Below are positions 1,555 to 42,249 of a stretch of 64,000 nucleotides of DNA, piece after piece (position 1 is the stretch's first letter; each line of letters begins with the position of its first letter). Source of the stretch: Schistosoma haematobium (taxonomy: Eukaryota; Platyhelminthes; Trematoda; Strigeidida; Schistosomatidae); the NCBI RefSeq assembly GCF_000699445.3, contig NC_067195.1, positions 57,764,465 through 57,828,464 of the forward strand, given 5' to 3'. The notes under the pieces are model-generated. The model was not told the DNA's origin, made no database searches, and worked only from the letters and a program-made list of their open reading frames with translations. Both the position numbers and the translations under genes were made by a program.

Positions 1555-4500
1555 GTAAGAATTAAATCTAATCCATTAATTATAATTTTCTAGTAGTAAA
1601 CACTATTCATTTTAAAAGGTTTATAGCGTATATTAAGCATAAAATTATGGATTTTTCAAACAGCAGTAAATTCTCACCTATCAGTAGAGTTTATAGTTTG
1701 CTTAATCTACACACTAGCCTCTGCATCAGTAGGCCTCAACATACACCAAGGAAAAAGCGAGATCCTCGAATACAACACGGAGAACATCAACCCAATCACA
1801 CTTGATGGCGAAACTCTGGAAAATGTGCAATCCTTCACGTACCTGGGAAGCATCATCGACGAACAAGAAGGATCGGATGTAGACGTAAAGACGAGGATTG
1901 GCAAAGTAAGGGCCGCATTCCTACAATCCAAGAACATATAGAACTCAAAACAACTCTCAACCAATATCAAGGTCACAATCTTCAATAGAAATGTCAACAC
2001 AGTTCTACTATACGGAGCTGAAACTTGGAGAACTATTACGACCATGATCAAGAAGGTACAAGTATTTACAAATAGTTGTTTACGCAAGATACTCAATATT
2101 CATTGGCTGGATACCATCAGCAACAGCCTACTGTGGAGGAGAACAAACCAGTTTCCAAATAAAGAAGAAATTAAAAAACGATGTTGGAAGTAGATAGGAC
2201 ATACATTTCGGAAATCATCAAACTGCACCACGAGACAAGTGATAACTTTGAACCCTGAAGGGAAGCGGGAAAGTGGAAGGTCAAAGGGCACTCTGCCTTG
2301 AGAATTGGAAGCAGACATGAGAAGGATGAATAGCAACTTGAAAGGACTGCTAAGGACAGAGTTAGATGGAGAGTGCTTGTGAGCGGCTTATGCTCCTTCA
2401 CGAGGAGTAACAGACGTAAGCAATTAAGTAATCTATACACTATTAATAATTATTCAAAATACGTTAATTTGGTCAAGATGGAGAATTTTCCAGTTGTCTA
2501 CTGAAATTATATAGATTTACTTGAAAAGAAAGATAGAACTGAACTAATCTCATTATCAAAGATGAGATGTTTTTAAAAAAATTAATGATATACATACAGA
2601 AGTCATTGTTGTAGTGTAGTTATAAAGTCAATCAAGAAGTGTAAACCAGTTAAATTTAGTATAGTGAATGTAAATGATACAAAATATTTCATCAAAAGAA
2701 TATTGTTCTATTTATAAGTTATAATACCTAGAATAGAGTCGTTCATAATTAGAAGTATTTAATGTTAAGTGATAAATTATTGTGAGTATTATAAACTCAT
2801 CATTTGAAACAAGAATTAATAAACAATGAATGGTGTTTACTTCCATGTCGTACTGCGAAAATGCTGGTTAAAAACTTTACAGACAGAGCCTTCGTCTGTT
2901 CTATATTTGGCATGAAAAATAGATTATCAGTAAATATTATTCTAACTTACAATAAATTAACGTGTTACATTTTCATTTAGTTTAATGGAAACAATAACCG
3001 ATATATCCAAATAAAGCTTTATTAAGATCCTACATTACATTTAGACGTTTATGAGAATGATCATGAATCAACAGTATAGAAACAATATTGTTTCGACCGT
3101 AATATGTTAATTATAAGCAGAAACTATGGAAATTATTGATTTGATGGGAATATAATTTAAATGAGTTGTATCGTTTATATTACTGTTTACTAATGATCAA
3201 TAACCAACCAAATCTTTTAGAAGTCGAATTCACGAGCCAATCTAAGCTAGACCACTATTTAAAACCTAGAAGCATTGAACAGGAGTCTTGTCCTAGTATG
3301 GGACTCCTCAAAATTGTTCATCCACAATCTCGCACTCCGTAATCGAACACAGCAATTTCGGTATCGCGCTATAGATCACTCAGTCAGTATCCAATGTTAT
3401 TAATGTTTGACTTCAATCACCCCAGGATTTTGCATAACCTTTCATCTTTTGTCTGAGGTGGATAACTCTTTCACACTTGACACGGACTGGACTCCGTTGG
3501 TCATGGTTCCTCAACAAACTCCAGGAGTTACATCTTGAACCTAGTCACTAGCGAGCACACGATCATGATCGTGGATGCGCACTGCTGAGTCCCATACTAG
3601 GACGAAACGGCCATCTAGTGCTTCCAGGTTCTCAATTATGGTCTAGTTTAGATTAACTCGTGAATTCAACTAGTAAAATGCTCCAATCTCCACAAATTCT
3701 CCTAATGGTAACTGAATTTTTGCCAAATTTTAGGTTAAGCAAACTAAATCAGTATATTTAATATGACCACTATAAATGTAGATTAAGAAAAGGTTTCTTT
3801 ACAGGAAAAGTTATCGTTAACGGTAACTGATTCGACTAAGTGAATATTCGAATATTACTTCTATGACAATAGAAAATGTCAATCTATAGTAAATTATTTT
3901 AGTGTTGAAACTTTAATTGATCATTTAAACTCAATGGCTAGTGAGAATTTCAACATTTATAGTTATAAGCGAATTAAAATGAAATTTTACCTATTATTTA
4001 ATTTTCTTAGATGTATTGTATCAGTAAATATTGTTAAAGAAGTTGATGTAGAAATCATAAGTGAATGTCCACCTGGGCAATTAAAATGTAGATCTGGTGA
4101 ATGCTTGCCAAGAGCAGTGTTTTGTGATGGGAAGTATGATTGCCCAGATAGATCAGATGAAGATCCAAGATCATGTGGTAAGATTCTCTGTTTACTGAAA
4201 TAATGATAATTCATCTTACTTTTCAATCATTAATATTCGTTCAAGCGATAGATTTGGTCGATTCCAATCACTAAAGTATGAGGTTTATCTAAACGATAGT
4301 AATAATATCTTTTTTTGCAAGTTTTCTTTTTGTATGTTTATCTGAAGGACTTTGATGGAGTTCTGTTCTCTGAGCTGGATGGTTTGGTCGTGGAGCTTTC
4401 ATCCTTCTTCTGAACGACATCATCAGCAAAAACTTCAGATAGAAGTGAAGTGTTCGAATTTCTTCATATACGTTTCACAGCTTATTCTGTACACCTCGAC

Positions 4501-7500
4501 GTTGATTGGTCCTTATTGACCTTAAATTTGTCATTGTTTACTCCTTCGTTTTGGTTGTGTCTTCCAGTGGTTTGATTTTTGTTCCCATATTTGTGCATAA
4601 TTTTCCTGATTGGTTGATAAATTGGATCGATTACAATGTGCTTGTTGATTGCTGATTGACCTGAGTGCCAGGCTTCTAAAAATTCTCTAGTGTTTTTGGA
4701 ATTTCCTCTGTCCAATATTTCCACATTTTTCCAATCGAACGAGTGTCCGCAGTTGTCCATATTTATTTATATAAGTGAGGAAGTATAATATAATGGTTTT
4801 ACAATTGATTGATCACTGGGTGGTGATCAATCTCATGCTTGTCTAGTCCTTATTAGTGCAGATCGAATGCTATCGATCATGTTGCAATGTGGCCACCAGT
4901 CTAGGTGACTCGACACTGCGGGCACTATGTATTGAGATTAGATGGTGGTTGGAGGTAGTCAACAGGAAACCCTGGACCCGGGTTTCGTGCTACTTGGCAC
5001 TCGTCAGCAAGGTGTACCTGTAATCTTGAGGGAACTGGTGCTCCCTGGCGGATTCGATCTCGTGTCACCCAGCTTCACAGTCAGAGACGTTACCACTGAG
5101 CTATCCGAGCCGTGACTAACCTCCTGTAGGACTGAGATGTAATCACAATTGATTGATCACTGGGTGGTGATCAATCTCATGCTTGTCTAGTCCTTATTAG
5201 TGCAGATCGAATGCTATCGATCATGTTGCAATGTGGCCACCAGTCTAGGTGACTCGACACTGCGGGCACTATGTATTGAGATTAGATGGTGGTTGGAGGT
5301 AGTCAACAGGAAACCCTGGACCCGGGTTTCGTGCTACTTGGCACTCGTCAGCAAGGTGTACCTGTAATCTTGAGGGAACTGGTGCTCCCTGGCGGATTCG
5401 ATCTCGTGTCACCCAGCTTCACAGTCAGAGACGTTACCACTGAGCTATCCGAGCCGTGACTAACCTCCTGTAGGACTGAGATGTAATCACAATTGATTGA
5501 TCACTGGGTGGTGATCAATCTCATGCTTGTCTAGTCCTTATTAGTGCAGATCGAATGCTATCGATCATGTTGCAATGTGGCCACCAGTCTAGGTGACTCG
5601 ACACTGCGGGCACTATGTATTGAGATTAGATGGTGGTTGGAGGTAGTCAACAGGAAACCCTGGACCCGGGTTTCGTGCTACTTGGCACTCGTCAGCAAGG
5701 TGTACCTGTAATCTTGAGGGAACTGGTGCTCCCTGGCGGATTCGATCTCGTGTCACCCAGCTTCACAGTCAGAGACGTTACCACTGAGCTATCCGAGCCG
5801 TGACTAACCTCCTGTAGGACTGAGATGTAATCACAATTGATTGATCACTGGGTGGTGATCAATCTCATGCTTGTCTAGTCCTTATTAGTGCAGATCGAAT
5901 GCTATCGATCATGTTGCAATGTGGCCACCAGTCTAGGTGACTCGACACTGCGGGCACTATGTATTGAGATTAGATGGTGGTTGGAGGTAGTCAACAGGAA
6001 ACCCTGGACCCGGGTTTCGTGCTACTTGGCACTCGTCAGCAAGGTGTACCTGTAATCTTGAGGGAACTGGTGCTCCCTGGCGGATTCGATCTCGTGTCAC
6101 CCAGCTTCACAGTCAGAGACGTTACCACTGAGCTATCCGAGCCGTGACTAACCTCCTGTAGGACTGAGATGTAATCACAATTGATTGATCACTGGGTGGT
6201 GATCAATCTCATGCTTGTCTAGTCCTTATTAGTGCAGATCGAATGCTATCGATCATGTTGCAATGTGGCCACCAGTCTAGGTGACTCGACACTGCGGGCA
6301 CTATGTATTGAGATTAGATGGTGGTTGGAGGTAGTCAACAGGAAACCCTGGACCCGGGTTTCGTGCTACTTGGCACTCGTCAGCAAGGTGTACCTGTAAT
6401 CTTGAGGGAACTGGTGCTCCCTGGCGGATTCGATCTCGTGTCACCCAGCTTCACAGTCAGAGACGTTACCACTGAGCTATCCGAGCCGTGACTAACCTCC
6501 TGTAGGACTGAGATGTAATCACAATTGATTGATCACTGGGTGGTGATCAATCTCATGCTTGTCTAGTCCTTATTAGTGCAGATCGAATGCTATCGATCAT
6601 GTTGCAATGTGGCCACCAGTCTAGGTGACTCGACACTGCGGGCACTATGTATTGAGATTAGATGGTGGTTGGAGGTAGTCAACAGGAAACCCTGGACCCG
6701 GGTTTCGTGCTACTTGGCACTCGTCAGCAAGGTGTACCTGTAATCTTGAGGGAACTGGTGCTCCCTGGCGGATTCGATCTCGTGTCACCCAGCTTCACAG
6801 TCAGAGACGTTACCACTGAGCTATCCGAGCCGTGACTAACCTCCTGTAGGACTGAGATGTAATCACAATTGATTGATCACTGGGTGGTGATCAATCTCAT
6901 GCTTGTCTAGTCCTTATTAGTGCAGATCGAATGCTATCGATCATGTTGCAATGTGGCCACCAGTCTAGGTGACTCGACACTGCGGGCACTATGTATTGAG
7001 ATTAGATGGTGGTTGGAGGTAGTCAACAGGAAACCCTGGACCCGGGTTTCGTGCTACTTGGCACTCGTCAGCAAGGTGTACCTGTAATCTTGAGGGAACT
7101 GGTGCTCCCTGGCGGATTCGATCTCGTGTCACCCAGCTTCACAGTCAGAGACGTTACCACTGAGCTATCCGAGCCGTGACTAACCTCCTGTAGGACTGAG
7201 ATGTAATCACAATTGATTGATCACTGGGTGGTGATCAATCTCATGCTTGTCTAGTCCTTATTAGTGCAGATCGAATGCTATCGATCATGTTGCAATGTGG
7301 CCACCAGTCTAGGTGACTCGACACTGCGGGCACTATGTATTGAGATTAGATGGTGGTTGGAGGTAGTCAACAGGAAACCCTGGACCCGGGTTTCGTGCTA
7401 CTTGGCACTCGTCAGCAAGGTGTACCTGTAATCTTGAGGGAACTGGTGCTCCCTGGCGGATTCGATCTCGTGTCACCCAGCTTCACAGTCAGAGACGTTA

Positions 7501-10500
7501 CCACTGAGCTATCCGAGCCGTGACTAACCTCCTGTAGGACTGAGATGTAATCACAATTGATTGATCACTGGGTGGTGATCAATCTCATGCTTGTCTAGTC
7601 CTTATTAGTGCAGATCGAATGCTATCGATCATGTTGCAATGTGGCCACCAGTCTAGGTGACTCGACACTGCGGGCACTATGTATTGAGATTAGATGGTGG
7701 TTGGAGGTAGTCAACAGGAAACCCTGGACCCGGGTTTCGTGCTACTTGGCACTCGTCAGCAAGGTGTACCTGTAATCTTGAGGGAACTGGTGCTCCCTGG
7801 CGGATTCGATCTCGTGTCACCCAGCTTCACAGTCAGAGACGTTACCACTGAGCTATCCGAGCCGTGACTAACCTCCTGTAGGACTGAGATGTAATCACAA
7901 TTGATTGATCACTGGGTGGTGATCAATCTCATGCTTGTCTAGTCCTTATTAGTGCAGATCGAATGCTATCGATCATGTTGCAATGTGGCCACCAGTCTAG
8001 GTGACTCGACACTGCGGGCACTATGTATTGAGATTAGATGGTGGTTGGAGGTAGTCAACAGGAAACCCTGGACCCGGGTTTCGTGCTACTTGGCACTCGT
8101 CAGCAAGGTGTACCTGTAATCTTGAGGGAACTGGTGCTCCCTGGCGGATTCGATCTCGTGTCACCCAGCTTCACAGTCAGAGACGTTACCACTGAGCTAT
8201 CCGAGCCGTGACTAACCTCCTGTAGGACTGAGATGTAATCACAATTGATTGATCACTGGGTGGTGATCAATCTCATGCTTGTCTAGTCCTTATTAGTGCA
8301 GATCGAATGCTATCGATCATGTTGCAATGTGGCCACCAGTCTAGGTGACTCGACACTGCGGGCACTATGTATTGAGATTAGATGGTGGTTGGAGGTAGTC
8401 AACAGGAAACCCTGGACCCGGGTTTCGTGCTACTTGGCACTCGTCAGCAAGGTGTACCTGTAATCTTGAGGGAACTGGTGCTCCCTGGCGGATTCGATCT
8501 CGTGTCACCCAGCTTCACAGTCAGAGACGTTACCACTGAGCTATCCGAGCCGTGACTAACCTCCTGTAGGACTGAGATGTAATCACAATTGATTGATCAC
8601 TGGGTGGTGATCAATCTCATGCTTGTCTAGTCCTTATTAGTGCAGATCGAATGCTATCGATCATGTTGCAATGTGGCCACCAGTCTAGGTGACTCGACAC
8701 TGCGGGCACTATGTATTGAGATTAGATGGTGGTTGGAGGTAGTCAACAGGAAACCCTGGACCCGGGTTTCGTGCTACTTGGCACTCGTCAGCAAGGTGTA
8801 CCTGTAATCTTGAGGGAACTGGTGCTCCCTGGCGGATTCGATCTCGTGTCACCCAGCTTCACAGTCAGAGACGTTACCACTGAGCTATCCGAGCCGTGAC
8901 TAACCTCCTGTAGGACTGAGATGTAATCACAATTGATTGATCACTGGGTGGTGATCAATCTCATGCTTGTCTAGTCCTTATTAGTGCAGATCGAATGCTA
9001 TCGATCATGTTGCAATGTGGCCACCAGTCTAGGTGACTCGACACTGCGGGCACTATGTATTGAGATTAGATGGTGGTTGGAGGTAGTCAACAGGAAACCC
9101 TGGACCCGGGTTTCGTGCTACTTGGCACTCGTCAGCAAGGTGTACCTGTAATCTTGAGGGAACTGGTGCTCCCTGGCGGATTCGATCTCGTGTCACCCAG
9201 CTTCACAGTCAGAGACGTTACCACTGAGCTATCACGGCTCGGATAGCTCAGTGGTAACGTCTCCTGACTGTGAAGCTGGGTGACACGAGATCGAATCCGC
9301 CATTGATTGCACCAGTTCCCTCAAGATTACAGGTATCACCTTGCTGACGAGTGCCAAGTAGCACGAAACCCGGGTCCAGGGTTTCCTGTTGACTACCTCC
9401 AACCACCATCTAATCTCAATACATAGTGCCCGCAGTGTCGAGTCACCTAGACTGGTGGCCACATTGCAACATGATCGATAGCATTCGATCTGCACTAATA
9501 AGGACTAGACAAGCATGAGATTGATCACCACCCAGTGATCAATCAATTGTGATTACATCTCAGTCCTACAGGAGGTTAGTCACGGCTCGGATAGCTCAGT
9601 GGTAACGTCTCTGACTGTGAAGCTGGGTGACACGAGATCGAATCCGCCAGGGAGCACCAGTTCCCTCAAGATTACAGGTACACCTTGCTGACGAGTGCCA
9701 AGTAGCACGAAACCCGGGTCCAGGGTTTCCTGTTGACTACCTCCAACCACCATCTAATCTCAATACATAGTGCCCGCAGTGTCGAGTCACCTAGACTGGT
9801 GGCCACATTGCAACATGATCGATAGCATTCGATCTGCACTAATAAGGACTAGACAAGCATGAGATTGATCACCACCCAGTGATCAATCAATTGTGATTAC
9901 ATCTCAGTCCTACAGGAGGTTAGTCACGGCTCGGATAGCTCAGTGGTAACGTCTCTGACTGTGAAGCTGGGTGACACGAGATCGAATCCGCCAGGGAGCA
10001 CCAGTTCCCTCAAGATTACAGGTACACCTTGCTGACGAGTGCCAAGTAGCACGAAACCCGGGTCCAGGGTTTCCTGTTGACTACCTCCAACCACCATCTA
10101 ATCTCAATACATAGTGCCCGCAGTGTCGAGTCACCTAGACTGGTGGCCACATTGCAACATGATCGATAGCATTCGATCTGCACTAATAAGGACTAGACAA
10201 GCATGAGATTGATCACCACCCAGTGATCAATCAATTGTGATTACATCTCAGTCCTACAGGAGGTTAGTCACGGCTCGGATAGCTCAGTGGTAACGTCTCT
10301 GACTGTGAAGCTGGGTGACACGAGATCGAATCCGCCAGGGAGCACCAGTTCCCTCAAGATTACAGGTACACCTTGCTGACGAGTGCCAAGTAGCACGAAA
10401 CCCGGGTCCAGGGTTTCCTGTTGACTACCTCCAACCACCATCTAATCTCAATACATAGTGCCCGCAGTGTCGAGTCACCTAGACTGGTGGCCACATTGCA

Positions 10501-13500
10501 ACATGATCGATAGCATTCGATCTGCACTAATAAGGACTAGACAAGCATGAGATTGATCACCACCCAGTGATCAATCAATTGTGATTACATCTCAGTCCTA
10601 CAGGAGGTTAGTCACGGCTCGGATAGCTCAGTGGTAACGTCTCTGACTGTGAAGCTGGGTGACACGAGATCGAATCCGCCAGGGAGCACCAGTTCCCTCA
10701 AGATTACAGGTACACCTTGCTGACGAGTGCCAAGTAGCACGAAACCCGGGTCCAGGGTTTCCTGTTGACTACCTCCAACCACCATCTAATCTCAATACAT
10801 AGTGCCCGCAGTGTCGAGTCACCTAGACTGGTGGCCACATTGCAACATGATCGATAGCATTCGATCTGCACTAATAAGGACTAGACAAGCATGAGATTGA
10901 TCACCACCCAGTGATCAATCAATTGTGATTACATCTCAGTCCTACAGGAGGTTAGTCACGGCTCGGATAGCTCAGTGGTAACGTCTCTGACTGTGAAGCT
11001 GGGTGACACGAGATCGAATCCGCCAGGGAGCACCAGTTCCCTCAAGATTACAGGTACACCTTGCTGACGAGTGCCAAGTAGCACGAAACCCGGGTCCAGG
11101 GTTTCCTGTTGACTACCTCCAACCACCATCTAATCTCAATACATAGTGCCCGCAGTGTCGAGTCACCTAGACTGGTGGCCACATTGCAACATGATCGATA
11201 GCATTCGATCTGCACTAATAAGGACTAGACAAGCATGAGATTGATCACCACCCAGTGATCAATCAATTGTGATTACATCTCAGTCCTACAGGAGGTTAGT
11301 CACGGCTCGGATAGCTCAGTGGTAACGTCTCTGACTGTGAAGCTGGGTGACACGAGATCGAATCCGCCAGGGAGCACCAGTTCCCTCAAGATTACAGGTA
11401 CACCTTGCTGACGAGTGCCAAGTAGCACGAAACCCGGGTCCAGGGTTTCCTGTTGACTACCTCCAACCACCATCTAATCTCAATACATAGTGCCCGCAGT
11501 GTCGAGTCACCTAGACTGGTGGCCACATTGCAACATGATCGATAGCATTCGATCTGCACTAATAAGGACTAGACAAGCATGAGATTGATCACCACCCAGT
11601 GATCAATCAATTGTGATTACATCTCAGTCCTACAGGAGGTTAGTCACGGCTCGGATAGCTCAGTGGTAACGTCTCTGACTGTGAAGCTGGGTGACACGAG
11701 ATCGAATCCGCCAGGGAGCACCAGTTCCCTCAAGATTACAGGTACACCTTGCTGACGAGTGCCAAGTAGCACGAAACCCGGGTCCAGGGTTTCCTGTTGA
11801 CTACCTCCAACCACCATCTAATCTCAATACATAGTGCCCGCAGTGTCGAGTCACCTAGACTGGTGGCCACATTGCAACATGATCGATAGCATTCGATCTG
11901 CACTAATAAGGACTAGACAAGCATGAGATTGATCACCACCCAGTGATCAATCAATTGTGATTACATCTCAGTCCTACAGGAGGTTAGTCACGGCTCGGAT
12001 AGCTCAGTGGTAACGTCTCTGACTGTGAAGCTGGGTGACACGAGATCGAATCCGCCAGGGAGCACCAGTTCCCTCAAGATTACAGGTACACCTTGCTGAC
12101 GAGTGCCAAGTAGCACGAAACCCGGGTCCAGGGTTTCCTGTTGACTACCTCCAACCACCATCTAATCTCAATACATAGTGCCCGCAGTGTCGAGTCACCT
12201 AGACTGGTGGCCACATTGCAACATGATCGATAGCATTCGATCTGCACTAATAAGGACTAGACAAGCATGAGATTGATCACCACCCAGTGATCAATCAATT
12301 GTGATTACATCTCAGTCCTACAGGAGGTTAGTCACGGCTCGGATAGCTCAGTGGTAACGTCTCTGACTGTGAAGCTGGGTGACACGAGATCGAATCCGCC
12401 AGGGAGCACCAGTTCCCTCAAGATTACAGGTACACCTTGCTGACGAGTGCCAAGTAGCACGAAACCCGGGTCCAGGGTTTCCTGTTGACTACCTCCAACC
12501 ACCATCTAATCTCAATACATAGTGCCCGCAGTGTCGAGTCACCTAGACTGGTGGCCACATTGCAACATGATCGATAGCATTCGATCTGCACTAATAAGGA
12601 CTAGACAAGCATGAGATTGATCACCACCCAGTGATCAATCAATTGTGATTACATCTCAGTCCTACAGGAGGTTAGTCACGGCTCGGATAGCTCAGTGGTA
12701 ACGTCTCTGACTGTGAAGCTGGGTGACACGAGATCGAATCCGCCAGGGAGCACCAGTTCCCTCAAGATTACAGGTACACCTTGCTGACGAGTGCCAAGTA
12801 GCACGAAACCCGGGTCCAGGGTTTCCTGTTGACTACCTCCAACCACCATCTAATCTCAATACATAGTGCCCGCAGTGTCGAGTCACCTAGACTGGTGGCC
12901 ACATTGCAACATGATCGATAGCATTCGATCTGCACTAATAAGGACTAGACAAGCATGAGATTGATCACCACCCAGTGATCAATCAATTGTGATTACATCT
13001 CAGTCCTACAGGAGGTTAGTCACGGCTCGGATAGCTCAGTGGTAACGTCTCTGACTGTGAAGCTGGGTGACACGAGATCGAATCCGCCAGGGAGCACCAG
13101 TTCCCTCAAGATTACAGGTACACCTTGCTGACGAGTGCCAAGTAGCACGAAACCCGGGTCCAGGGTTTCCTGTTGACTACCTCCAACCACCATCTAATCT
13201 CAATACATAGTGCCCGCAGTGTCGAGTCACCTAGACTGGTGGCCACATTGCAACATGATCGATAGCATTCGATCTGCACTAATAAGGACTAGACAAGCAT
13301 GAGATTGATCACCACCCAGTGATCAATCAATTGTGATTACATCTCAGTCCTACAGGAGGTTAGTCACGGCTCGGATAGCTCAGTGGTAACGTCTCTGACT
13401 GTGAAGCTGGGTGACACGAGATCGAATCCGCCAGGGAGCACCAGTTCCCTCAAGATTACAGGTACACCTTGCTGACGAGTGCCAAGTAGCACGAAACCCG

Positions 13501-16500
13501 GGTCCAGGGTTTCCTGTTGACTACCTCCAACCACCATCTAATATAATGGTTTTAGTTTGAAAAATTAGCCACATATATTCAACATGTGATCTTCTGATAG
13601 GCTAAGACAATATGAAATGTAGCATCGAAACAAATTATCTCACGTAACTCTCATGTTGAAAACTCTGGATTGTTATGATGGGATAATCATTCGGTAAAAT
13701 ACCAGTATGACTGACTAAACCGTAAAGATTATTTGTTTGGGAATAGTACCGTTGAATTCTAACCAATTATTTTTCACCAGAAAAACCAGTTAACTGTTAT
13801 TTATAAACAAAATATCAGATATCAAATACTTAGCGTGGATTAATAGTGAAAATGACTATCACAAAAAGAATTGAGAGAGCCACCGTTTCATCTATAGTAC
13901 AAAAGAGTAGTGATGAAATAGACTGGTTTAATGAATAATAATACCAAACAAATGTTTGAGAAATCCAAACAGTATAAAGAAAGAACAAATCGAGACTGCT
14001 AGTGATATTTTGTACTGGTAACATTGAAAACAATAAATCATATTATATTCAAACATCCTAGACCCTATTCCAGGTTATTTTTGACAGGACAATGATAAGT
14101 TGCAGTAGCTAAAAAGCACGTTGATAAGTCTGTCTAATTTAAAACGGGCTCAATAAATTATTCTCATATTTCATCCGTCAAGCACATCCTAAACTATCTA
14201 ATGTCAGAATCACTACATACCGTTTCAGTGATTAAGATTCCTACACGAAACACACTTTTGTAACCTGTGTACATAGCATTTTTTAAAATTTTCTAGATGA
14301 TTCACTTATTCAATCTAGTATTATCCTTAGTGCTTCTGTATGACTTTCATCTTGTTTCAGACATAGATATTAGAGTACCCTAATAATGAATATTCTCTTT
14401 GCAATTCATAACTGAGTTGAAACATTTCAAAATTATTTTTCATGATTTACAAGAAATAGCTTAATTATGTGATAAATAAGGACGCTTCTTCCATATGAAT
14501 AGAAATAATCATGTGTGCTTCACAAACTCCGTTTTCATTAGATTAGAGTTTGAAAATATCAGACGTCTGAAGTAGTAGATAATTAACAATGTTGTTGAAA
14601 TGAATAAAAATATTTAATATCACTGTTTAAATGCTAAGCATTTTCTTTTTATTCTCATTTTCATTTTACTGACATCAGTTCCTACAATTATTATTACTCC
14701 AACAACAATTTTAACAAGACCACATGAATCTTTCCAATTTGAATGTAAATCAGTTATGCCAGGTGGTGAACCAAAAATTACACTTGAAGGTTATCCAGTT
14801 GAAAATGATCCCAGATTTACAATTGTACGTCCAAGCCGTGAACATGTTATTGTTCGAGCAGAAAGTGGTATTGCTGATCCTGGAAAATATTCTTTCACGT
14901 ATGAAAACATAGTATACAATTAAAAATTCTTAACAATCACATTTATTATACAACGATAAAATTCCTATCCTAAAATATATTTTATTATTGTTTACCTGCA
15001 TAAAGATAGAAATCAAGTACTAGTTGTGAGATTTGATAATGCTAACTATTTCTCACTTTAAAGTGTACTTTGAAAGGAAACGTTACTGGTTAATTTTGAA
15101 AAACAAACCCTTCTTTCAGTGTATCATATCAGATATAGTCTAATTTATAAATTCATAAGTTCTAGAATTTAGTAATTAAAAAGTGTACTTATGAAGATTT
15201 AAATTTAAGATTTTACGGTCAAGTGAAAGTTTATAAAATAGGGTATATGCAATATCACAGATTGAAATTATGAGTCAGTTGAATCTAGACCAACATGGAA
15301 AACGTGGAAGCAGTGGACGGCCGTTTCGTCCTAGTACGGGACTCCTCAGCAGTGCGCATTCACGATCCCACACCCCGAGAGATTCGAACCCAGGACCTAT
15401 CAGTCTCGCGCCAAGCGCCTAACCAACTGGACCACTGAGCCGGCATCCAATGGTGTTAACGTCTAACTTCAACCAATCCACGAGGTTGCGCCACCGTATG
15501 CCATTGTCTTCAGTGAGCTGATATCTCACGGGGTGTGGGATCATGTGTGCGCACTGCCGAGGAGTCCCCTACTAGGACGAAACGGCCGTCCACTGCTTCC
15601 AGGTTTTCCATGGTGGTCTAGCTTCAATTGACTCATAATTTCAATCTGTGAAATTTCTAAAATCTCCACAAACCCCTTCTGATATATGCAATATGTTTAC
15701 AAAAGTTAACTACATAGCCGTTCAAATCAAAATACACTGATCGAAATAAATAAATAAATAAAATAAAGTGAGTGGTCTACTGAGCTACCTTGTTAAAACA
15801 TTTTGCTAAAGCACAATTCTCTGAAATTCCTCAACATTATTACTTATGTGATAAGTGATTATACTGTCTCTTATTTTGTCAGAATTTGAAGATTCACTAA
15901 TTTGACACCATTTGTATTCAGTGATAACAGTTTCTTTTGTATTTATGTAATTTCGAGTGAGTTACCTGAGACCTATCTTATATTTTAATAAAAATTCCAT
16001 TTGTTGTGATATGGGGAGTGTTATAATTTTTTATTCCATCACATTAAGCATGTTATTCTTACCATGGTTTTCTAAAAAAAATATCCATGGTCTAGTAATT
16101 CCCATATAGTGTAATCTACCTAAGACACAGTGTGCATTTCAAATTATTATAAGAATTCAACAATAACTACTGTTTCATTAATCCAATACAACTTTGATTT
16201 ATTATAAACATATGAAACGATATGTATCTCTCATCTTATTTTATACATTCATTAGGTGATGTGATTATTTTTATGCTGTATATTCTTGATTAACTTGGTG
16301 GTATCACTGATTCTTAAATAAACTAAAGTTGATGAAGTGAGATTTCACTTGGTCACTAATTAGTTGAAAACCAAAAGCTTCGACTGCTAAAAACTACTAT
16401 TCTATATTCGTTAAAACATAGATATGAAATCTTTTAGTTCATTTAAATGAAATTTCTATTTCTTATCAAACAGACTGGTGAAATGATATTTATGAAATAA

Positions 16501-19500: not shown

Positions 19501-22500
19501 AATCTAAATTATTTCAGATTTTGTTATTCAATTCTAATGTGCAAAGGAAATATGTTTTCACTCACGAGAGTGGGTTTTTTTCATATCTTGTTAACGATAA
19601 ACTATTTGAGTTAGACTGATATCATAACATTTTCTCTTGTGCTTAATAAATTTAATTGGTGACACAAAAAATATCACAGCACTCAAAACCATTCGAAAAT
19701 CTAAGCACATTTTGAAATCTCTACTCCCAGAGATTGAAGACTTCTAAAAATCCACTTGTTTTTTAATAAATGTTCTGATTTGAATGTCACATAGAGTAGA
19801 AATTTCATTCATCACACAAAAACTTAAACTCACTGGATACTCATTAACAGTGAGATACTATTTTATACCAATTAGCTAGTAATTACTTAATCATTATTCG
19901 TTTCTGATAGTTGACGTATAACGGTTTGTAAGACGTCACGAAAATACAAGTTACGAATGAATATGGAAGTTATATAATTTTAGATAGGTTATCTATAAGG
20001 TTTTATTAGTAGTAGATTTATCGTTCCATTATATTGTCCGTTGTTAACCTCATAATGACTGAACGATATTAACTCAGTGATTGTATAAAGCATTGAAGTT
20101 TAATAATACACTGACTCGGAAAATAATGTTACCCAAGTTTTTTAAGTCATACAGGAAGAAGATAAAAGCACTTGGTATTGTTTTACTTGAATCTTCCTAT
20201 TGATGTTTTAGGACTGAAATTGATCAGTCTCTTATTTGCATATGTGCATACTGTACGTATGCATCGATATTGCCTTAATTTACAAGCATTATAAGCAAAG
20301 ATGGATAGTGGCTAGCAGTGGAATCCAGGACGCGCGTTTCGTCTTGTTTGGGACTCGCTTTGAGGTGAACGGTACTGAGTTCGAGTTCCAGAGTGAACAT
20401 CAACTCCGAGATGCAGGTACATCCAGCTGACGAGTCCCAAACAGGACGAAACGCGCGTCCTGGATTCCACTGCTAGCCACTATCCATCTTTGCTTATAAT
20501 GCTTGTAAATTAAGAAGATAAACGCATTGTAACACTATACACATGTATAAAATATGATCAAAGTTACACGTGAGTAATTGACAGAGACAAATATACGGGT
20601 GACAGATTAAGTGGAAAGATTAGTATAATTCCTCTGTCCAAATATTAAAATAAATCACGTGGGCGTGTGACAATACCGAGCACCAAAGATTTAGCAAACA
20701 GACAAGGAAACTTACCACATTCAAATTTATTATCACTGAGAATACTAAGACCTATCGTCCATGCTGTAACTTAGTAACCGTTGCTAAATGATTCGTAAAA
20801 GGCTATGACACTTCATGCATTCAACATCTCCTTATTACGATCTGAAAGTATCTCACTATCAAAGGTTTTTATATATTTGAATATAGTTTTCACTAACTGA
20901 CAAAGAATAGTTTGTTCTCGAAAACGCAAAACCCCTGTAATAGTATGATCATTTCTTGAAAATAGAATTAGAAAGCTAATTCATAATAATGAATAGATTA
21001 TGATGCGTTTGTCAACAGTCATCTCTATAAAATGGTGAATACTAGCTTAGACCATAAAAACTAAATGAATTTAAATCTTCTATAATAGTCTTACTCAAAT
21101 TATTCTACCTCAATAATTTGAATATTAGTGATTAGTAGTTATGTTGTAACTCTGTTATTAGCTGAAGTGGCTGTTGATGTACGAGTTCACTTTACTCCTG
21201 GTGAATTACGAATTCAACCTGGTCGAGCATTCCGTTTGGAATGTGTGACGGATAAACCGGGCACATCTCCAGTTTTACAGTTTCTTGATGGGAGACCAAT
21301 AACAAGTGACCCAAGATTTGTGGTTTCTAGGCCATCAACTGAACGTGCCATCATAGACGTTCCTGGAGGCCTTGATGCTAGAGACAGACAGATCATAATC
21401 GAGTAAGCTTAAATTTATTGACAATACTCATTCACATATTTTAATTATGTCATTACTAATTTCTGCTAGTTGTAGACTTATTGTAAATATTACTACAATT
21501 CAGGTTAAAATAGATAGTCTGTTTGTACGTAAACAGATAAATTAATCGGAAAAACTGAAAAGAATTCAATGAATAACCACTTTTTTAAAGAACAAAACTA
21601 AAAGTAACCGGATTCATATTTCACAAATATTTCATTGTAGGTTTCTTAGTTTACTTTTTCTAAATTAAATTTAGGCATTTAATGTTTATAAAAATCTACA
21701 AATTAAATATTGTCATAGTTAAAATCACTAATCGACCATAGCTAGACTACTAATGGAAACCTGAAAGCGCAAGACGGCAGTTTCATCCTAGTTATGAACT
21801 CCCCAGCAGTGTTCATCCCTTCTTAAGATGAGGGAATCAAACTCAGGACCTTCGGTCTTGCACACGAACCCTTAACCGCTAGACTCCATACCATTAATAA
21901 CCATGTGTCTACTAATGACTAGCTTCAAGATGTAACTCCTGGAGTTTTATTGAGGAACCATGACCAACGGAGTCCAGTCCGTGTCAAGTGTGAAAGAGTT
22001 ATCCACCTCAGACAAAAAATAAAGGGTTGTGCAAGATCATGGGGTGATTGAAGTCAAACATTAATAACATTGGATACTGACTGAGTGATCTATAGCGCGA
22101 TACCGAAATTGCTGTGCTCGATTACGGAGTGTGAAATTGTGGATGAACACTTTTGAGGAGTCCCACACTGGGATAAGACGCCTATCCAATGCTTCTAGGT
22201 TTTAAATAGTGGTCTAGCTTAGATCAAATCGTGATTTCAACCTTGAAAATACTACAACCTCGACAACCCCCCATACCAATGAATTAAATATTTATCGTGT
22301 ATTATAGTTGTATGATCTTACTTGATTAAGAAATTAAAAGAACCTCAACCACTCTCTTATTAAGTTCTGTAACCTGGATTTTCAAGCACTTCGATGAAAC
22401 AGACTATTTTTTAATGAACATTTTTAAAAAACTGGGCTTACATGATTATGTGAGTTATCTCAGCCGGTAAACGAAACGGCCGTCCAGTGCTTCCAGGTTT

Positions 22501-25500
22501 TCAATTGTAGTGGTCAAACATCAATCGGTTCATGATCTCAATCAAAAAAGAAAATCTGTTGGTTATGCCTTGGCAACTAACTCATTGATCGATTCGTATG
22601 TATAGTCTTCTGCTAGGTTTGAAGCTATTACGAGTTCACTTAGTATGCGAACGGAACAAAGACTTGTGACCGTAGACCACTAAGCTAGCTATTTTAAGCG
22701 TCCCAGCTCCGCTAACTAGAGGAAGAAGTCAAAGCTTGGAACGGGGAAGCATATTCCGTAAGCCAGAAGCACGAGTGAATAATAACAGACACAAATTAAA
22801 CGTATACATACAGCATAAAACTGTCCTTGAGAAGTGTAGCAAAAATAGCATACTAAAAATACACAACGGACCAATAGCGTTAAAGATTCTCCCAAGTGGG
22901 AAATACGAAATGAAGGTGAAAAGTGCGCTGTTGGCGCGAAAACAATGAAATTTAAATTTCCAAAATAAAATTATGAAATTAAGGCATTTACCATGTGAGT
23001 TCTGGGGATCTAACATCCCCAACACCTTCTAAGCGGTGAAGCAAACGAGGATTACAAAACTTAAATTAATACAGGAGTGAACAATAAATGAGTACTAACA
23101 GGTATATAACCAAGATGTTCATTTTTCAGATCGTCGCAGGAAACAAATGTAACCGTTATCCAATTACTTATTGCAGTCTTTTACAAATTAAAATGTTTGC
23201 CAAATGACATGTTAGTTTACATCTTTAATGTCTCCAATGTTATAACTTACCAGATTCAATAGAAGATCTAACAGCCAAAGAAGATAAATTTAAATTTTCT
23301 TAGTATTTTGTTGAGTAAATTAGCCGTACTTATAGTTCAAGTCTAACTGTAGTATATTAAAATCAAAATAGGATTTACTATATTGTATCAAATTGAATGT
23401 TTACTCCGAAATAAAACATATATTCTAAATGCCAATCTTGCTAATTGATAACTTAAACTAATTCCAATTCATTATCAAAACATGGAAGTAGATTAACCCC
23501 AGTTGCTTACTGACTTTTTAAATTTCAGATGTGTATCTCCCAGTGGTGAAAGAAAAACATCAACCATCTTCATCGAACTAGGTTGTCAACCAGGACAAAG
23601 ACGATGTCCCAGTGGGCAGTGTATATTTGTGGGTCAATTCTGTGATGGGAAACCTGATTGCGATGATGGATTTGATGAGAAACCTGAAAACTGTGGTATA
23701 TTTTTCATATTCTGCATATTATATATCCTGATTACTTATTCCCGAATTTCTGCTGTCAGTAGATACTTACTTTTTTACTTAAGCCTGTTATCACCTATGG
23801 AGCTTAGGCTGCCTAGCAGGATCTTCTAACCAACCTTGTCATCAGACAATCAGTAAAAAAGCTCCCATAAGTCATAATTTGAGTCACATTATGACAACTG
23901 TCAAACCTGTATTTCAGTGTGTTTTGAAATTTTTTAAATAAACAAAAGTTTAGAAAATATACGGATTTGCGAAAATATATCATCACTTATTAAGTAGGGT
24001 AGAAGGAAAATAACGTAGAATGGTCTAATCAGCAGAAACCATCTCCGGTTATAACCAGATCAAGGGTGACACTATATAACCCTCGATAGTACTTACATAT
24101 TATTAGGTTGTAATATTAACAGAAAGCAAACAAATGCTTTCTCACCGATGACTTTTCAAAGACAAGGAACCTTTTGAATAAACAATGTCAACAGATAAAA
24201 TATGAACTGCATTCAGATGTCGTTCTCCGCCAAGACAGGTTTGCGTTATGCTCTGATGTCCAATCGTTATTTGTCTGACGACCATTTGTCACAAATTCTA
24301 AATCTGTTCAAATTGACGTCCTGCCGAAAGGAATAGCATCATATTATTATACACAACTCTGGAGTTAACGTTGAACATAAATGTTATTCACTGGGTGTAT
24401 GATGAAACTTAACTTATTTTTATTATTTTGAATAGAATAGAGCTAACAGTTTTCTAATTCCTATGATTACAGAGTATTGTGAACCAATAACAAAACCATG
24501 CGAAGTTGTGAATGGTAAACCACCTAAAGAAAAAACCTATGAACTACATTGGAGGTGTGATGGCGAAGATGATTGTGGAAATCGGTTTGATGAACAAAAT
24601 TGTCTAAATGGTAAGTATTTGTTTGAATAATGAAACTCAGAATATACATGTACAGAATGAGATAACATTTGTTGAATGACTTTAGTTCATTTTACAAATA
24701 ACATGTTAGTAAAAGTTAAATTATTATTATCGAAATACCATTAATTTTCACTATGTAAATGTTTTCAGTTGTAATTTCTTAGGAAATGATGATACGAATT
24801 TTTATGTGGACGTTAGTGATAAAATGGTAAAACACAAATATCAAACTGTTAAAATATGTTATCGAATTGACGATAATTAATTTGTAACGAACCAAATATC
24901 ATTATTTTTTCTGGTTAGCGTTTTTTTCAGCAAGTTATTTTTCTACGGGATGGGGTCGCTAACCCTATACCCAACACTACTCCTTTATCCGGGCTTGGGA
25001 CCGGTAGTAGCTCCAGGGGGACTTCAGGCGGAGTTCAAATATCAGATGACTGTTATCATTTCTCGTACATATTCACTAACGATATTACTTATTAGTGATC
25101 TAATTGCAGTTTTACTTAAACAGCAATTTCATTTACAACTTATACTTTACTTTCAGACACTCGTGTACCAGATAACGAGTGTGGTGCTACTCATTTCAGA
25201 TGTGGTACTGAACCATATCAGTATATACCGTTTGCATACTGGTGTGATGGAGGTCGTGATTGTCGAGGTGGTGAAGATGAAGCTGATTGTTGTAAGGAAA
25301 TAACTTCAACTTTTCAGTATTTTATTTTTTATTTTACTTATCATCAGATGAAAATAGTTTTGTATATAGATGTTATATTTAGAAAAGAACTAACATAGAC
25401 TAAGGTGTAATTTCAGTGGTTGAGATCATGAATCAATTAAAGCTAGGTCACCATGGAAAACCTGGAAGCACTGGATGGCCGTTTCGTCCTAGTATGGGAC

Positions 25501-27689: not shown

Positions 27690-28830
27690 ATGCTTGTTAT
27701 CCGTCAAGTGGGAGCATAAGCCACATAGTTGTTTCACATTTCCATCTCTTACAGATTTGTGTGCTGTCGTTGCTAGGTCTTCCACGAATTTCTGTTTGTC
27801 AGCTCTAATGCTCCTGTAAGGCTTGGAACTTGTTGTCGAGAGTTATCTTGAATTCGTTGATTTTCTCAGTATGTCAAAGGAAGGCTGTATTAAACCTTTG
27901 TAATGCTGCTTCTCCCGTTGTCCATTAGTTCCGTAGCTTCAGTTTCGTCTTGACAACCACCAGCTGGTGCTGATTTGAAGCTATGTCAAGTCCTCTCCTG
28001 TTTCTCAGTTTTTCCATCGACCTGAATTCTTCAGTGGTACAGATATGATCGATCTGATTCTCTGTAGTTTGATCCGATGAGACCCATATAGCTCTGTGTA
28101 TGCGTCTGTGAGGAAATTTAAAGCCATCTATAACGAGTTTGTCAAATGTACCTAAATTTCTTAACCTGTCACCATTCTCATTCGTTTTTCCCAGTCAATC
28201 CATATCGTTCAATGAAATCTGCATAGCCGGTGTCCTCCATTCTGACTTTGGCGTTTAGATCTCCTATTAGGATTGTCAGGTCCTTTGTTGAGCATTTTGC
28301 CATGATCGATTGCAGCCTCTCATAGAACTGATCTCTATCGTCGTCGTTGCTATCATAAGTGGGTACATAACACTGGATAATATTCATTTGTTTTCCTTCT
28401 TCTTTGTTTTGAAGGATGCTTTGATGATTCTAGATCCGTGAGTCTCATCCTATAAGTGCTTCACATGGTTCTTTGTTCAACATCAGAGAAACTGCCTGAG
28501 TGTGTAGAGAATATTCCTCTCTGTGACCGGAGTACAATAGCATTTCTCCCGTACCTAACTTTTGATGTCCAGCTTTGGTCCAATGTGTTTCACTCTTTTC
28601 GAACACCATCAAGTTGCATCTCCTCATTTCCATAGTTATTAGGCTGGTACTCCCGGTCTCTCACATTGTCCGGACATGCCATGTACCTATATTAGTTGTT
28701 GCTCTGGTTGTTAGGTGCAAGGGTTGTTTTCTACTGGTTGGAGTTGCTGACACCACACCTAGCCCCCTCTACCCGGTCTTGGAACCGGCAGTAACCCTAG
28801 AAATGCTACAGGCAGAATTCAGGGATTAAA
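27690..28830 (-). mobile_element. internally deleted RTE-like element (endonuclease half plus 3' end)
   Basis: On the minus strand a GC-rich leader (28741-28829) is followed by endonuclease fragments: IGTWHVRTM, IIQCYVPTYDSNDDDRDQFY, LTILIGDLNAKV and QIDHICTTEEFRS. After about 27735 the sequence jumps to the family's extreme 3' end (tggcttatgctcccacttgacgg). Most of the RT is therefore deleted while both ends are kept. It lies between the convergent perlecan-like and ZMYND12 genes. Confidence 0.72.
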
Positions 28831-30166: not shown

Positions 30167-33100
30167 CTTGTAAGTAAAGAAATAAAATACGCAAGACCAA
30201 TAATAAATACAATAGTAATGCGAGAAATTATGTGACAATGCTTTTTTGGTAGTTTCACTTATATAGCTTTGTTTCGTCAAAAATTCAAATGCATATTTAG
30301 TAGGATTTTGAAGATATCCATTGAACATCCCAAGTTTGGATACTTTATAAGTAGTTTGGCAATGTATAGAAATCATGAACCGATCAATGTTAGACCACCA
30401 TTGAAGACCTGGAAGCATTATGCGGCCGTTTGGGATTCCTTAGCAGTGCGCATTCACGATCACGCAAGCTAGATTTGAACACGGAAACTTCGGTCTCGCG
30501 CAAACGTGAAATTCAACAACCTCCGCACCCCATACTGAAAATTACTATGTGCTCACTGGTGACTAGCTTTGAGAGATAATTCTCGGAGTTCTAGTGAGAA
30601 GCTGTGATCAGTGAAGTTTAACCGTATCGGGTATGAGACAGCCACCCACTGAAAACAATGGAAGGTGGTTGCGGGGTCGTGAGTGCGCACTGCTGAGGAG
30701 TCCCATACTAGAATCAAACGGTCGTCTAGTGCTTTTAGGTCTTGAACGGTCTAAAATTGATTGGTTAATGATTTCAATAAAATCGAAAAATTTCCATAAC
30801 TCTATACTAAAATTTTGACATTGTTCTATTTTTTTGTTAATGTGTAGACAAGCTAACTTACATACGTCACTTCTAAGATTTAATTAACGTGTTTCAATAT
30901 ATCTTCATTCAAACGAAATAAAGGGTTCCAGTAACATTATTTCTACATACGTCAGATATGAATAGGCTACATTAACTGGTGGAGAAGTACATTAATAAGA
31001 ACCTTTATAGAAAACGTTAAAATTGGATTCTTTTTTCGAAACTCATAAATGCTTACTTCTTGCTTTCTTTCTAAAATATAGTTTAGCATTGACAAAGTCA
31101 AATACAATTGAACTTTTGGATCTGGCTTGGCTGGATTACAAGTACTTGCATTAAGCTCATTTTCACTGATACGCTGATTATGATATTTCTCGATTGCATA
31201 CAGCATTTTTTCAGCTTCAGCTTTTTGTGCATCATCTGTTAATTATAATCAGTATATTTTGTTTATTCAAAGATACAATAATAAGATGTCTTATTAGTTG
31301 GGTACATACAAAAAAATTAATTCTAGTCTTAAATACTTACTCGACTCAAATCACATAGCTCTTCTAGAAGTAGCTTTCAGAACTATTTGAAAGGTATGAC
31401 AGTTTAACTACAAAAGAATACGAGTACTAAAATCACCATCCTAAGTTTGATGCTTGCAGTCCCTTATTTTACCTTGATCTTAGAAAACGGCATACAATCA
31501 AAACAACTTTCTAATTTCATAAGTTATTACTTCACTTTTTCCTTATTCACTTTTGTCTGATATTTATGAAGTAGACAGTTATCATTCATGAATGATCTGT
31601 TTATAATTTACTGTTTTGGATTATCATTTAAACTATCAAGCAACTTATCTAATCAATGTAAAACATTTTCAGTTACCTTTTTACTAATCCAATATCGTTC
31701 TATTTTATTAAACTTATTTATGATATGAAACTATAAATACAATTATACCGTTTCAGTGAATGATTTTTTCGCAGTACAGTATATCTATCATTTCATGTTT
31801 AAAGGTAATTTATAACAAAGTTGTACGAAAACATATTTGCTATATTGTGCTTATTAGTGAAGAATATTGAGAACCTTGAAGAATCTGATGTTTTCTAAGA
31901 TATTCTAGTTACATATGACCAAGTAGTTGAAAACAACATTACGGGACTAAATAGATCACGGCTAACTACATTAAAGGACTGAAATAGGTAAAGTAATCAT
32001 ACAGTGAGTAGTAAATAACATCATATTTAGTAGTTAACGTTGTAATTAATTTTGTTGTGAAAACAGTCGCAAAGATATCATGTTAACAATAATTCTCTTT
32101 ATTAGTTATCCAATAAATGAGGCGAGAAAAATGGATGCTACAATACTACAAGACAAGTTCGACAATGACATTCCTTCATTATGTCAATAAGTAAAACTGA
32201 TAATTTATGGAGTTTCAAAAGAAAAGGGGGAAAGACAGAGAAGTAACCACTATTAAATGTTCTGTACTCTACTGCTAAGTACACAGGGAAAAAATAATAA
32301 TAGACTAAACATTGAATGGTAGTTTTTTAAAAAAACTAGTTAACATCATGTCTACTATGTTTTATTTAAAACCTTTTATCGAGTTGACAGTCATTAAGGT
32401 GATATAATACAAACTATCAAACAAACGTAGAATATAAGACAAGACATCAACCATGATTAGTAAATTCGAAGTAACTCGTCGGAATGTCAACTCATTTTTA
32501 GGCAAAAAAAACTGCGAAGCACTATGGGTTATAAGTTGTGAAAAAATACACTGTTAATTCGTGTGAATGAGTCTCTAGAACATGTAGACTACATAATATT
32601 GTTATTTCACCCCTTAAAGTTTTGTACGATAGTAAGTTTGTCCCGATAAAAAGTCCATTATATTCTTGACTTTACTAATTTATTCCATATGACAGAATCT
32701 ATAATATAACTAAATTTGTTTATTTAATCGTAACAAAGTGGATTCGACTACTAGGATAGCCAATTATGATTAACAGGTTCTCAAAGCCCAATACAGACCA
32801 AAGGGTTGAGGCAAAATACATAGAGAACATTAAGACAATAACATACTTACAAAAATTGTACACATCTCCAGAGGAATGTGATTTGATGGAAATAATAGGG
32901 AAAATGCAGAAACCTGTTGCCAGTGGAAAGTAATAAACTTCCAGATTAATTGTGGACAGATCATCAGTTCGAAATGGCAACAACAGCAACAGTTTGCGCT
33001 CTTGATGCTTTATGACATCAGCTTAACCATAATAATACACTTTTAAGTCATTTTCGAGTAATTTCCTAGGTTCACTACAATGGAGTTCATTTAAAACTCA

Positions 33101-41662: not shown

Positions 41663-41766
41663 CAAGGTTATGCAACTCCGCCTGGAAGCCCTCCGAGGGC
41701 TGCTGCCGGTCCCAGGCCCGGATAGAGGAGGGTTGGGTATGGGGTTAGCGACCCCATCTCGTAGAA
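41663..41766 (+). mobile_element. GC-rich RTE 5'-leader fragment
   Basis: actccgcctggaagccctccgaggg to gcgaccccatctcg is the reverse complement of 24945-25044 and resembles the leader at 28741-28829. It stands out by base composition from its surroundings. Confidence 0.55.
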
Positions 41767-42249
41767 AACTAACTCGCAATAAAACTCAATCATATAAATC
41801 AGTTTCACTTGCATCACCCAATTTTTTTACCTTATTTTCAATTTCTGATGTTTCTGAACCAACGATCGTGACGGTGTTCTGTGCCATCGAAAATCTTAGA
41901 CATATAAAACAGCACTACCTAACTTATTTTCTATGGCTAATACTTAAATCAAAACCAAAAGTAGCTATCCATGAATGGTATCTTGCCATTGCTTTGTTAC
42001 GATTTGACAATCACGTAATATGGTCGATTTAAACAATTAAACTAAGATCTAAATCAGTCGATAACCTGACTGATAACTATTATTATTATTCACAAACATC
42101 TTATGGGTACATAAGTGTTGTAAAGAAATCATTTAGGGTTTCTTCAGAAATGCAATAATACACAAGTTTCAATAATGTTAGCATTATATTTGCCATATTT
42201 GAAAAAGAGAGTCAAAGAAAAAGGAAAATATAATAATGACAGTACAATA

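Follow-up and report, generated by a model that had tools for sequence, protein, structure and literature searches.

What kind of event places a long, near-perfect palindrome of ribozyme units in an animal genome? The question is raised by a stretch of 64,000 nucleotides (nt) from Schistosoma haematobium (assembly GCF_000699445.3, contig NC_067195.1, positions 57,764,465 to 57,828,464 of the forward strand; hereafter the window, numbered from its first letter), in which two arrays of one 344-bp hammerhead unit are joined head-to-head to form a palindrome of ~8.7 kb overall. The best explanation, in our assessment, is dual (twin) target-primed reverse transcription of the circular or multimeric RNA of a hammerhead short interspersed element (SINE). 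The whole structure is bounded by a 16-bp target-site duplication (TSD), a feature that is new relative to an initial annotation of this DNA made from the letters alone.

That annotation had described a 344-bp repeat in ~12.9 and then ~12.5 copies of opposite orientation, separated by an 8-nt loop, with all units identical except the first after the turn, and this array structure is confirmed. Tandem Repeats Finder places the 344-bp period at the same coordinates, with 12.9 copies at 4801-9233 (100% match) and 12.5 copies at 9232-13542 (99%), and the autocorrelation at lag 344 is 1.000 for one half and 0.978 for the other. Among 25 unit starts examined (13 on the plus and 12 on the minus strand), 22 begin units identical to the reference unit at 9580-9923, itself included, with 11 in each orientation; the other three are the 348-bp variant unit that opens the right arm and the two outermost units, where the arrays give way to flanking sequence. 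The first 10 nt of the innermost left unit are missing, and this unit was therefore left out of the 25.

The left arm (4801-9233, minus strand) consists of 12.9 antisense units, with its outer end at unit position 315 and its inner end at unit position 10, and is an exact match to the tandem unit over its whole 4433 nt. The right arm beyond the variant unit (9580-13542, plus strand) matches exactly over 3963 nt, comprising 11 complete identical units and a partial 13th that ends at unit position 175-179, depending on the assignment of a TAAT common to the TSD. Each arm thus contains 12 units and a further partial one (on the left, the innermost of the 12 is 10 nt short), and in both the 5' side of the unit faces the centre and the 3' side the outer border. 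Aligning the arms outward from the centre gives 4295 identities over 4297 left-arm positions, the right arm being longer by 4 nt within the aligned part. The array contains no open reading frame (ORF) of at least 110 amino acids (standard code, stop to stop).

The anatomy of the unit was examined by box scan, Rfam and fold prediction. The reference unit (9580-9923, plus strand), whose position 0 is TCACGGCTCGG, has a tRNA-like head, a hammerhead and a 3' part with a stem-loop. Using box consensuses that we take to be the standard ones, the A box is at position 12 and the B box at position 56, with a gap of 33 nt that corresponds to tRNA-like promoter spacing; outside the array, the window has three such pairs in 110,450 nt over its two strands, one being inside another hammerhead element (15251-15655, see below). 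The unit is not called a tRNA by ARAGORN and the Rfam tRNA model gives no match up to E = 5, and it is by its boxes that the head appears tRNA-like. Neither strand of the unit has a run of four T, and its GC content is 0.50.

Each repeat unit carries a type I hammerhead. Rfam Hammerhead_1 (RF00163) matches the arrays 26 times, 13 per strand and at 46.4 bits each (30 matches in the window are above gathering), including 9682-9726 (plus) in the reference unit and 4969-5013 (minus) at the outer end of the left arm, and no non-standard pair is marked in the three array alignments inspected. By the cleavage rule that we assume to apply, the RNA is predicted to be cut before unit position 141. A 27-nt hammerhead pattern was not matched exactly in any of the viral contigs searched. 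As a 344-nt circle, the unit has a predicted folding energy of -117.2 kcal/mol, compared with -89.7 +/- 5.6 for 100 shuffles, and a paired fraction of 0.616 that is not clearly higher than that of the shuffles (0.597 +/- 0.026).

The outer borders bear most directly on the origin of the structure. The direct repeat TAATATAATGGTTTTA, at 4786-4801 and 13539-13554, encloses the entire palindrome and is the longest string (16 nt) common to both flanks. Four nucleotides at the right (TAAT) and one at the left (the final A, common to the array) can be assigned equally well to the unit, which puts the length of the true duplication at 11-16 bp. When pairs of 38-bp stretches were drawn at random from the window flanks, 23 of 20000 shared at least 12 nt, a frequency that overstates chance because the draws could overlap (longest shared string 36). 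Because one repeat encloses the whole palindrome, a single insertion is the simplest reading and a mis-join is unlikely. Assembly of long palindromes and of identical tandem units is difficult, and the sole odd complete unit sits at the centre, as might be seen if two arrays had been mis-joined or wrongly polished; however, a direct repeat placed exactly at both outer borders is not expected from a mis-join, and we consider an assembly artefact very improbable as the source of the structure, although the assembled copy number and the variant may each be in error. The label 'satellite', applied initially, suits this locus poorly, since it looks like a single insertion.

The same borders speak to two further ways of making inverted arms. 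The left arm is inverted as far as the TSD itself, so that half of a direct tandem insertion could not have inverted after its arrival without a breakpoint placed exactly on the left TSD border, and a DNA transposon with long terminal inverted repeats, or a miniature element of that kind, would be expected to have matching ends, whereas the outer ends here are at unit positions 315 and 179. Other hammerhead elements in the window do have inverted arms, but we regard these two possibilities together as close to negligible. Because the borders lie at unit positions 179 and 315, and neither corresponds to the predicted ribozyme cut site at 141, priming would have occurred inside the RNA. The 25 nt preceding the two outer ends are AC-rich, to a degree reached by 26 of 344 windows along the unit for one end (14 of 344 counting TAAT) and by 59 of 344 for the other; a weak, post hoc resemblance to the published start sites of Penelope-like elements (PLEs) may be seen here.

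At the centre, the sequence reads ...CTGAGCTATC / ACGGCTCG / GATAGCTCAG..., which bears out the 8-nt loop (ACGGCTCG, 9234-9241). The TC at 9232-9233 is common to both arms and constitutes a 2-bp microhomology at the join. In unit terms the turning points of the arms are no more than 10 nt apart, at positions 10 (left) and 0 (right), beside the A box at 12, and would thus lie near the expected start of transcription by RNA polymerase III. Matches to microRNA families at the centre were all below gathering and were read as the palindrome itself.

The variant unit (9232-9579, plus strand) differs from the reference, on alignment, within its first ~105 nt alone. Its three changes, an extra nucleotide, a GGGA/TTGATT change (+2 nt) and a second extra nucleotide, fall between 9263 and 9336, close together in the tRNA-like half and linker. 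The variant has no mirror counterpart in the left arm, and four strings spanning the three changes were found, in a search of the window, at the variant unit only. A template jump, a variant source unit or a consensus error could each account for it. The inserted ATTGATTG of the variant is also present on the antisense strand of the unit.

The variant and the TSD together bear on the origin that was first put forward, a fold-back during replication. If one array had been copied back on itself, whether in replication, in break repair or by snap-back of a cDNA, the 8-nt loop would be the turn, and the near-perfect palindrome, the shortness of the loop and a possible 2-bp snap-back stem are as such a process would leave them; self-priming is, moreover, favoured by the authors who described palindromic Penelope inserts in a rotifer (PMC3846280). 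The variant would then have been the first unit copied, yet the left arm is without it; the left arm also extends 136 unit-nt past the end of the right arm, and the outer flanks are differing unique sequences attached to one TSD. The variant and the TSD therefore contradict a fold-back of DNA, barring both an error of the consensus at the variant and a slip of one unit during copying, and in our view fold-back is a distinctly improbable origin. Together, the phases of the arms, the TSD and the variant unit led us to set aside DNA fold-back, post-insertion inversion and a transposon with terminal inverted repeats. The second origin offered initially, template switching of a reverse transcriptase on a multimeric circular RNA, fared better: an origin by reverse transcription is upheld, but two primed cDNAs fit the geometry better than one cDNA that turns. 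The earlier interpretation is thus partly supported.

Arms that have their 5' sides at the centre fit two cDNAs, each primed by one strand of a staggered cut, and one TSD is indeed found around an inverted and a direct copy whose 5' ends meet at the junction, as expected of a dual-primed insertion. The locus probably records one retrotransposition of a tRNA-headed hammerhead SINE, of the metazoan non-LTR (long terminal repeat) retrozyme type, with reverse transcription started from both strands of a staggered cut. The geometry of the arrays, the TSD, the overlaps, the anatomy of the unit and the identity of its copies are direct observations, from which we infer the following events. The site would have been cut at positions 11-16 bp apart, as the TSD suggests, and each strand's 3' end lengthened by copying that began inside the retrozyme RNA, with an overlap of 1-4 nt. 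Each cDNA would have grown to 12 units and part of a 13th, stopping at, or no more than 10 nt from, the 5' start of a unit; the two ends would then have been joined head-to-head via the 2 bp TC, and gap filling would have produced the TSD. The enzyme may have come from a PLE, the first candidate, or from a long interspersed nuclear element (LINE), the second. The template would have been a 344-nt circle copied ~12 times per strand or a linear multimer.

Between these two templates we lean slightly towards the circle. The absence of any difference over both arms outside the variant unit argues for a circle, whereas a linear multimer is favoured by the stopping of both arms at or close to the start of a unit, near where transcription is expected to begin, and after an equal number of units; by our own arithmetic, two random stops would fall within 10 nt of each other with a chance of ~6% (21/344). 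Under the linear multimer, the variant would represent the first unit of one source array, yet the left arm is without it. Tentatively, and at somewhat less than even probability, we propose bidirectional rolling-circle target-primed reverse transcription, in which both cut ends copied a 344-nt hammerhead circle ~12 times each and were then fused. It is also possible that a single RNA was primed twice in the classic way: a 25-unit transcript would fit, as in the LINE-1 form of twin priming, with unit position 315 at the outer end of the left arm and unit position 0 at the inner end of the right arm lying 29 nt apart.

It could be, instead, that only a short dual-primed insert arrived, with ~1-2 units per arm and the same TSD, and that each arm was later expanded by unequal exchange or replication slippage. 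Schistosome hammerhead satellites of similar unit length are known (PMC8490949, Table 1: W36.2, 332-335 bp, up to 450 copies), and on this model the central variant stayed single while the neighbouring units multiplied. The 22 complete units without any difference and the lack of any trace of the variant in the left arm run against it, and the similar copy number of the two arms would be a coincidence, but neither point is decisive; we judge later expansion unlikely.

Several observations weigh against dual-primed retrotransposition, or against parts of it. The five other hammerhead loci checked in the window have no shared flank string longer than 6 nt at the chosen borders. No Penelope-like enzyme was found, although no search was directed at one. 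In vitro, a Penelope enzyme starts reverse transcription at the same position for both strands, at a site not homologous to the target (PMC11167929); here the strands start at different unit positions and overlap the flanks by 1-4 nt, unlike the in vitro case. The main substrate of that enzyme in vitro is unprocessed rather than cleaved RNA (PMC11167929), a preference that counts against the proposal where the template is a circle. Some Penelope inserts of the rotifer Adineta vaga are described as having no TSD, and their authors favour self-priming on an antisense template (PMC3846280). The same unit count in both arms is not explained by random stopping, the variant unit of the right arm requires another RNA species as well, or a template jump late in copying, and growth of a small head-to-head insert after its arrival could, as set out above, give the same layout.

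The array probably lies in an intron of a gene that, from its domain matches, appears to be perlecan-like: matches to LDL-receptor class A domains at ~4063-4176 and 23584-23694 and to an immunoglobulin domain near 27060, all on the plus strand, flank it, and the right-arm ribozymes would be in the sense of the gene. Host pre-mRNA would then carry a near-perfect hairpin of ~4.3 kb and 13 sense hammerheads within an intron. In the literature covered, the way in which hammerhead retrozymes integrate is a proposal, and an insertion of 8.7 kb with an intact TSD, two arms that look primed and identical units is a footprint able to test it, in that its borders point to priming sites, its centre to the stopping point and the identity of its units to a circle or a multimer. 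It could also explain in one step the origin of satellite arrays and of a locus within a gene that could form long double-stranded RNA. If bidirectional rolling-circle copying took place, the locus would be a fossil, in the genome, of the step proposed to turn retrozyme circles into tandem DNA, and would show how one insertion can lead directly to an inverted satellite that is complete from the start.

Elsewhere in the window, head-to-head arms are seen in four of the five other hammerhead loci checked, or five of six counting the array (inverted-repeat list and inspection by eye). The first, e15 (15251-15655), is a fold-back element whose arms are 92% alike; it has hammerheads on its two strands, at 36.7 bits and, below gathering, at 33.0 bits. 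An SMalpha-like element at 20274-20514 has head-to-head arms of 84 nt that are 99% complementary, and its two strands each carry a hammerhead (71.7 and 34.4 bits); TTAA is seen by eye at both of its ends, where no longer TSD was found. Two direct fragments make up the locus at 22125-22542. The fold-back element e25 (25409-25740) has arms 83% alike and a hammerhead on one strand (41.2 bits), its 53-nt inverted arm being without one, and the fold-back element at 30366-30770 has an inverted arm of 40 nt at 85% and a hammerhead on one strand (29.1 bits, below gathering). As e15 and e25 have one centre in common and no shared flank string exceeds 6 nt, the five loci were not counted as independent insertions; e15 and e25 may descend from one fold-back founder, and likely represent a family of ~400 bp with built-in inverted structure, similar in length to the published W25-W27 units. 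The similarity of the array unit to e15 (score 68) is not above the highest of 200 shuffles (71).

Two Twister-P1-like matches, at 24971-25040 and 28758-28824 (both minus; 49.3 and 41.2 bits, E = 2e-8 and 4e-6, gathering 67.2), came from a sub-gathering search of 13560-35000, and an inverted DNA relative of the former region is located at 41685-41784. LINE-type elements are present at 47379-49262 (minus; reverse transcriptase and endonuclease) and 58872-60980 (minus; reverse transcriptase, with an endonuclease match below the curated cut-off). The ORF of the first shares 94% identity with a Schistosoma bovis protein over 97% of the query and 95% with an S. haematobium protein over 51%, which places the window in or near the S. 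haematobium group, in agreement with the schistosome context that the initial annotation had drawn on.

How does the array relate to known systems? Schistosome hammerhead satellites and SINEs (PMC8490949), retrozymes and head-to-head Penelope inserts are already known; a retrozyme in the form of two long head-to-head arrays inside one TSD is not described in the literature covered by a limited search. The SMalpha and W-element satellites of Schistosoma have hammerhead units of 332-428 bp, with autosomal copies and one TSD case (W25.2), whereas the showcased W27.2 array differs in being described as tandem, without noticeable inversions (PMC8490949). Compared with the SMalpha-like element at 20274-20514, the only one used, the array unit scores 86 with the hammerhead (maximum of 200 shuffles, 54) and 34 with it masked (maximum 51), so that against this element homology outside the hammerhead is not above shuffles.

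Metazoan non-LTR retrozymes likewise consist of units a few hundred bp long, each with one type I hammerhead, in tandem arrays that reach 62-mers in a coral (Cervera and de la Pena 2020, PMC7229834). The same account gives a repeat length of ~150-450 bp (here 344 bp), TSDs of more than 4 bp when present (here 16 bp, or as few as 11 if the overlaps are RNA-derived) and RNAs of 170-400 nt, which a 344-nt monomer of this array, known here from DNA, would fit; reported GC is below 50%, whereas that of the array unit is 50%. No LTR, primer-binding site or polypurine tract is reported for the class, and the word 'inverted' is absent from the main text of that paper, which describes no head-to-head arrays in those words; nor is the word found in the available part of PMC6155905. 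Retrozymes are transcribed as circles, which, it is proposed, 'would be the templates' for tandem cDNA, with PLEs a strong candidate for the machinery (PMC7229834), and a review states that metazoan repeat units hold no motif that reveals their autonomous partner element (PMC7761336).

Twin priming of LINE-1 leaves an inverted 5' part and a direct 3' part inside one TSD, with microhomology at the junction; the array differs in having no poly(A) end and in that both arms are multimers. PLEs encode a reverse transcriptase and a GIY-YIG endonuclease, whereas the array is non-coding at the ORF length given above and has 12 or more units per arm. A Penelope-like enzyme in vitro cleaves and extends both strands, starts inside the RNA, prefers AT-rich targets and needs no ribozyme cleavage (PMC11167929), and A. 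vaga Penelope inserts have inverted head-to-head pLTRs (the element's own terminal repeats) with TSDs of 8, 9 or 10 bp (PMC3846280). PLEs, as described in these two reports, thus share with the array a TSD in several inserts, head-to-head inverted and tandem copies, a hammerhead and, on the dual-primed reading of the array, an internal start of reverse transcription and the extension of both strands.

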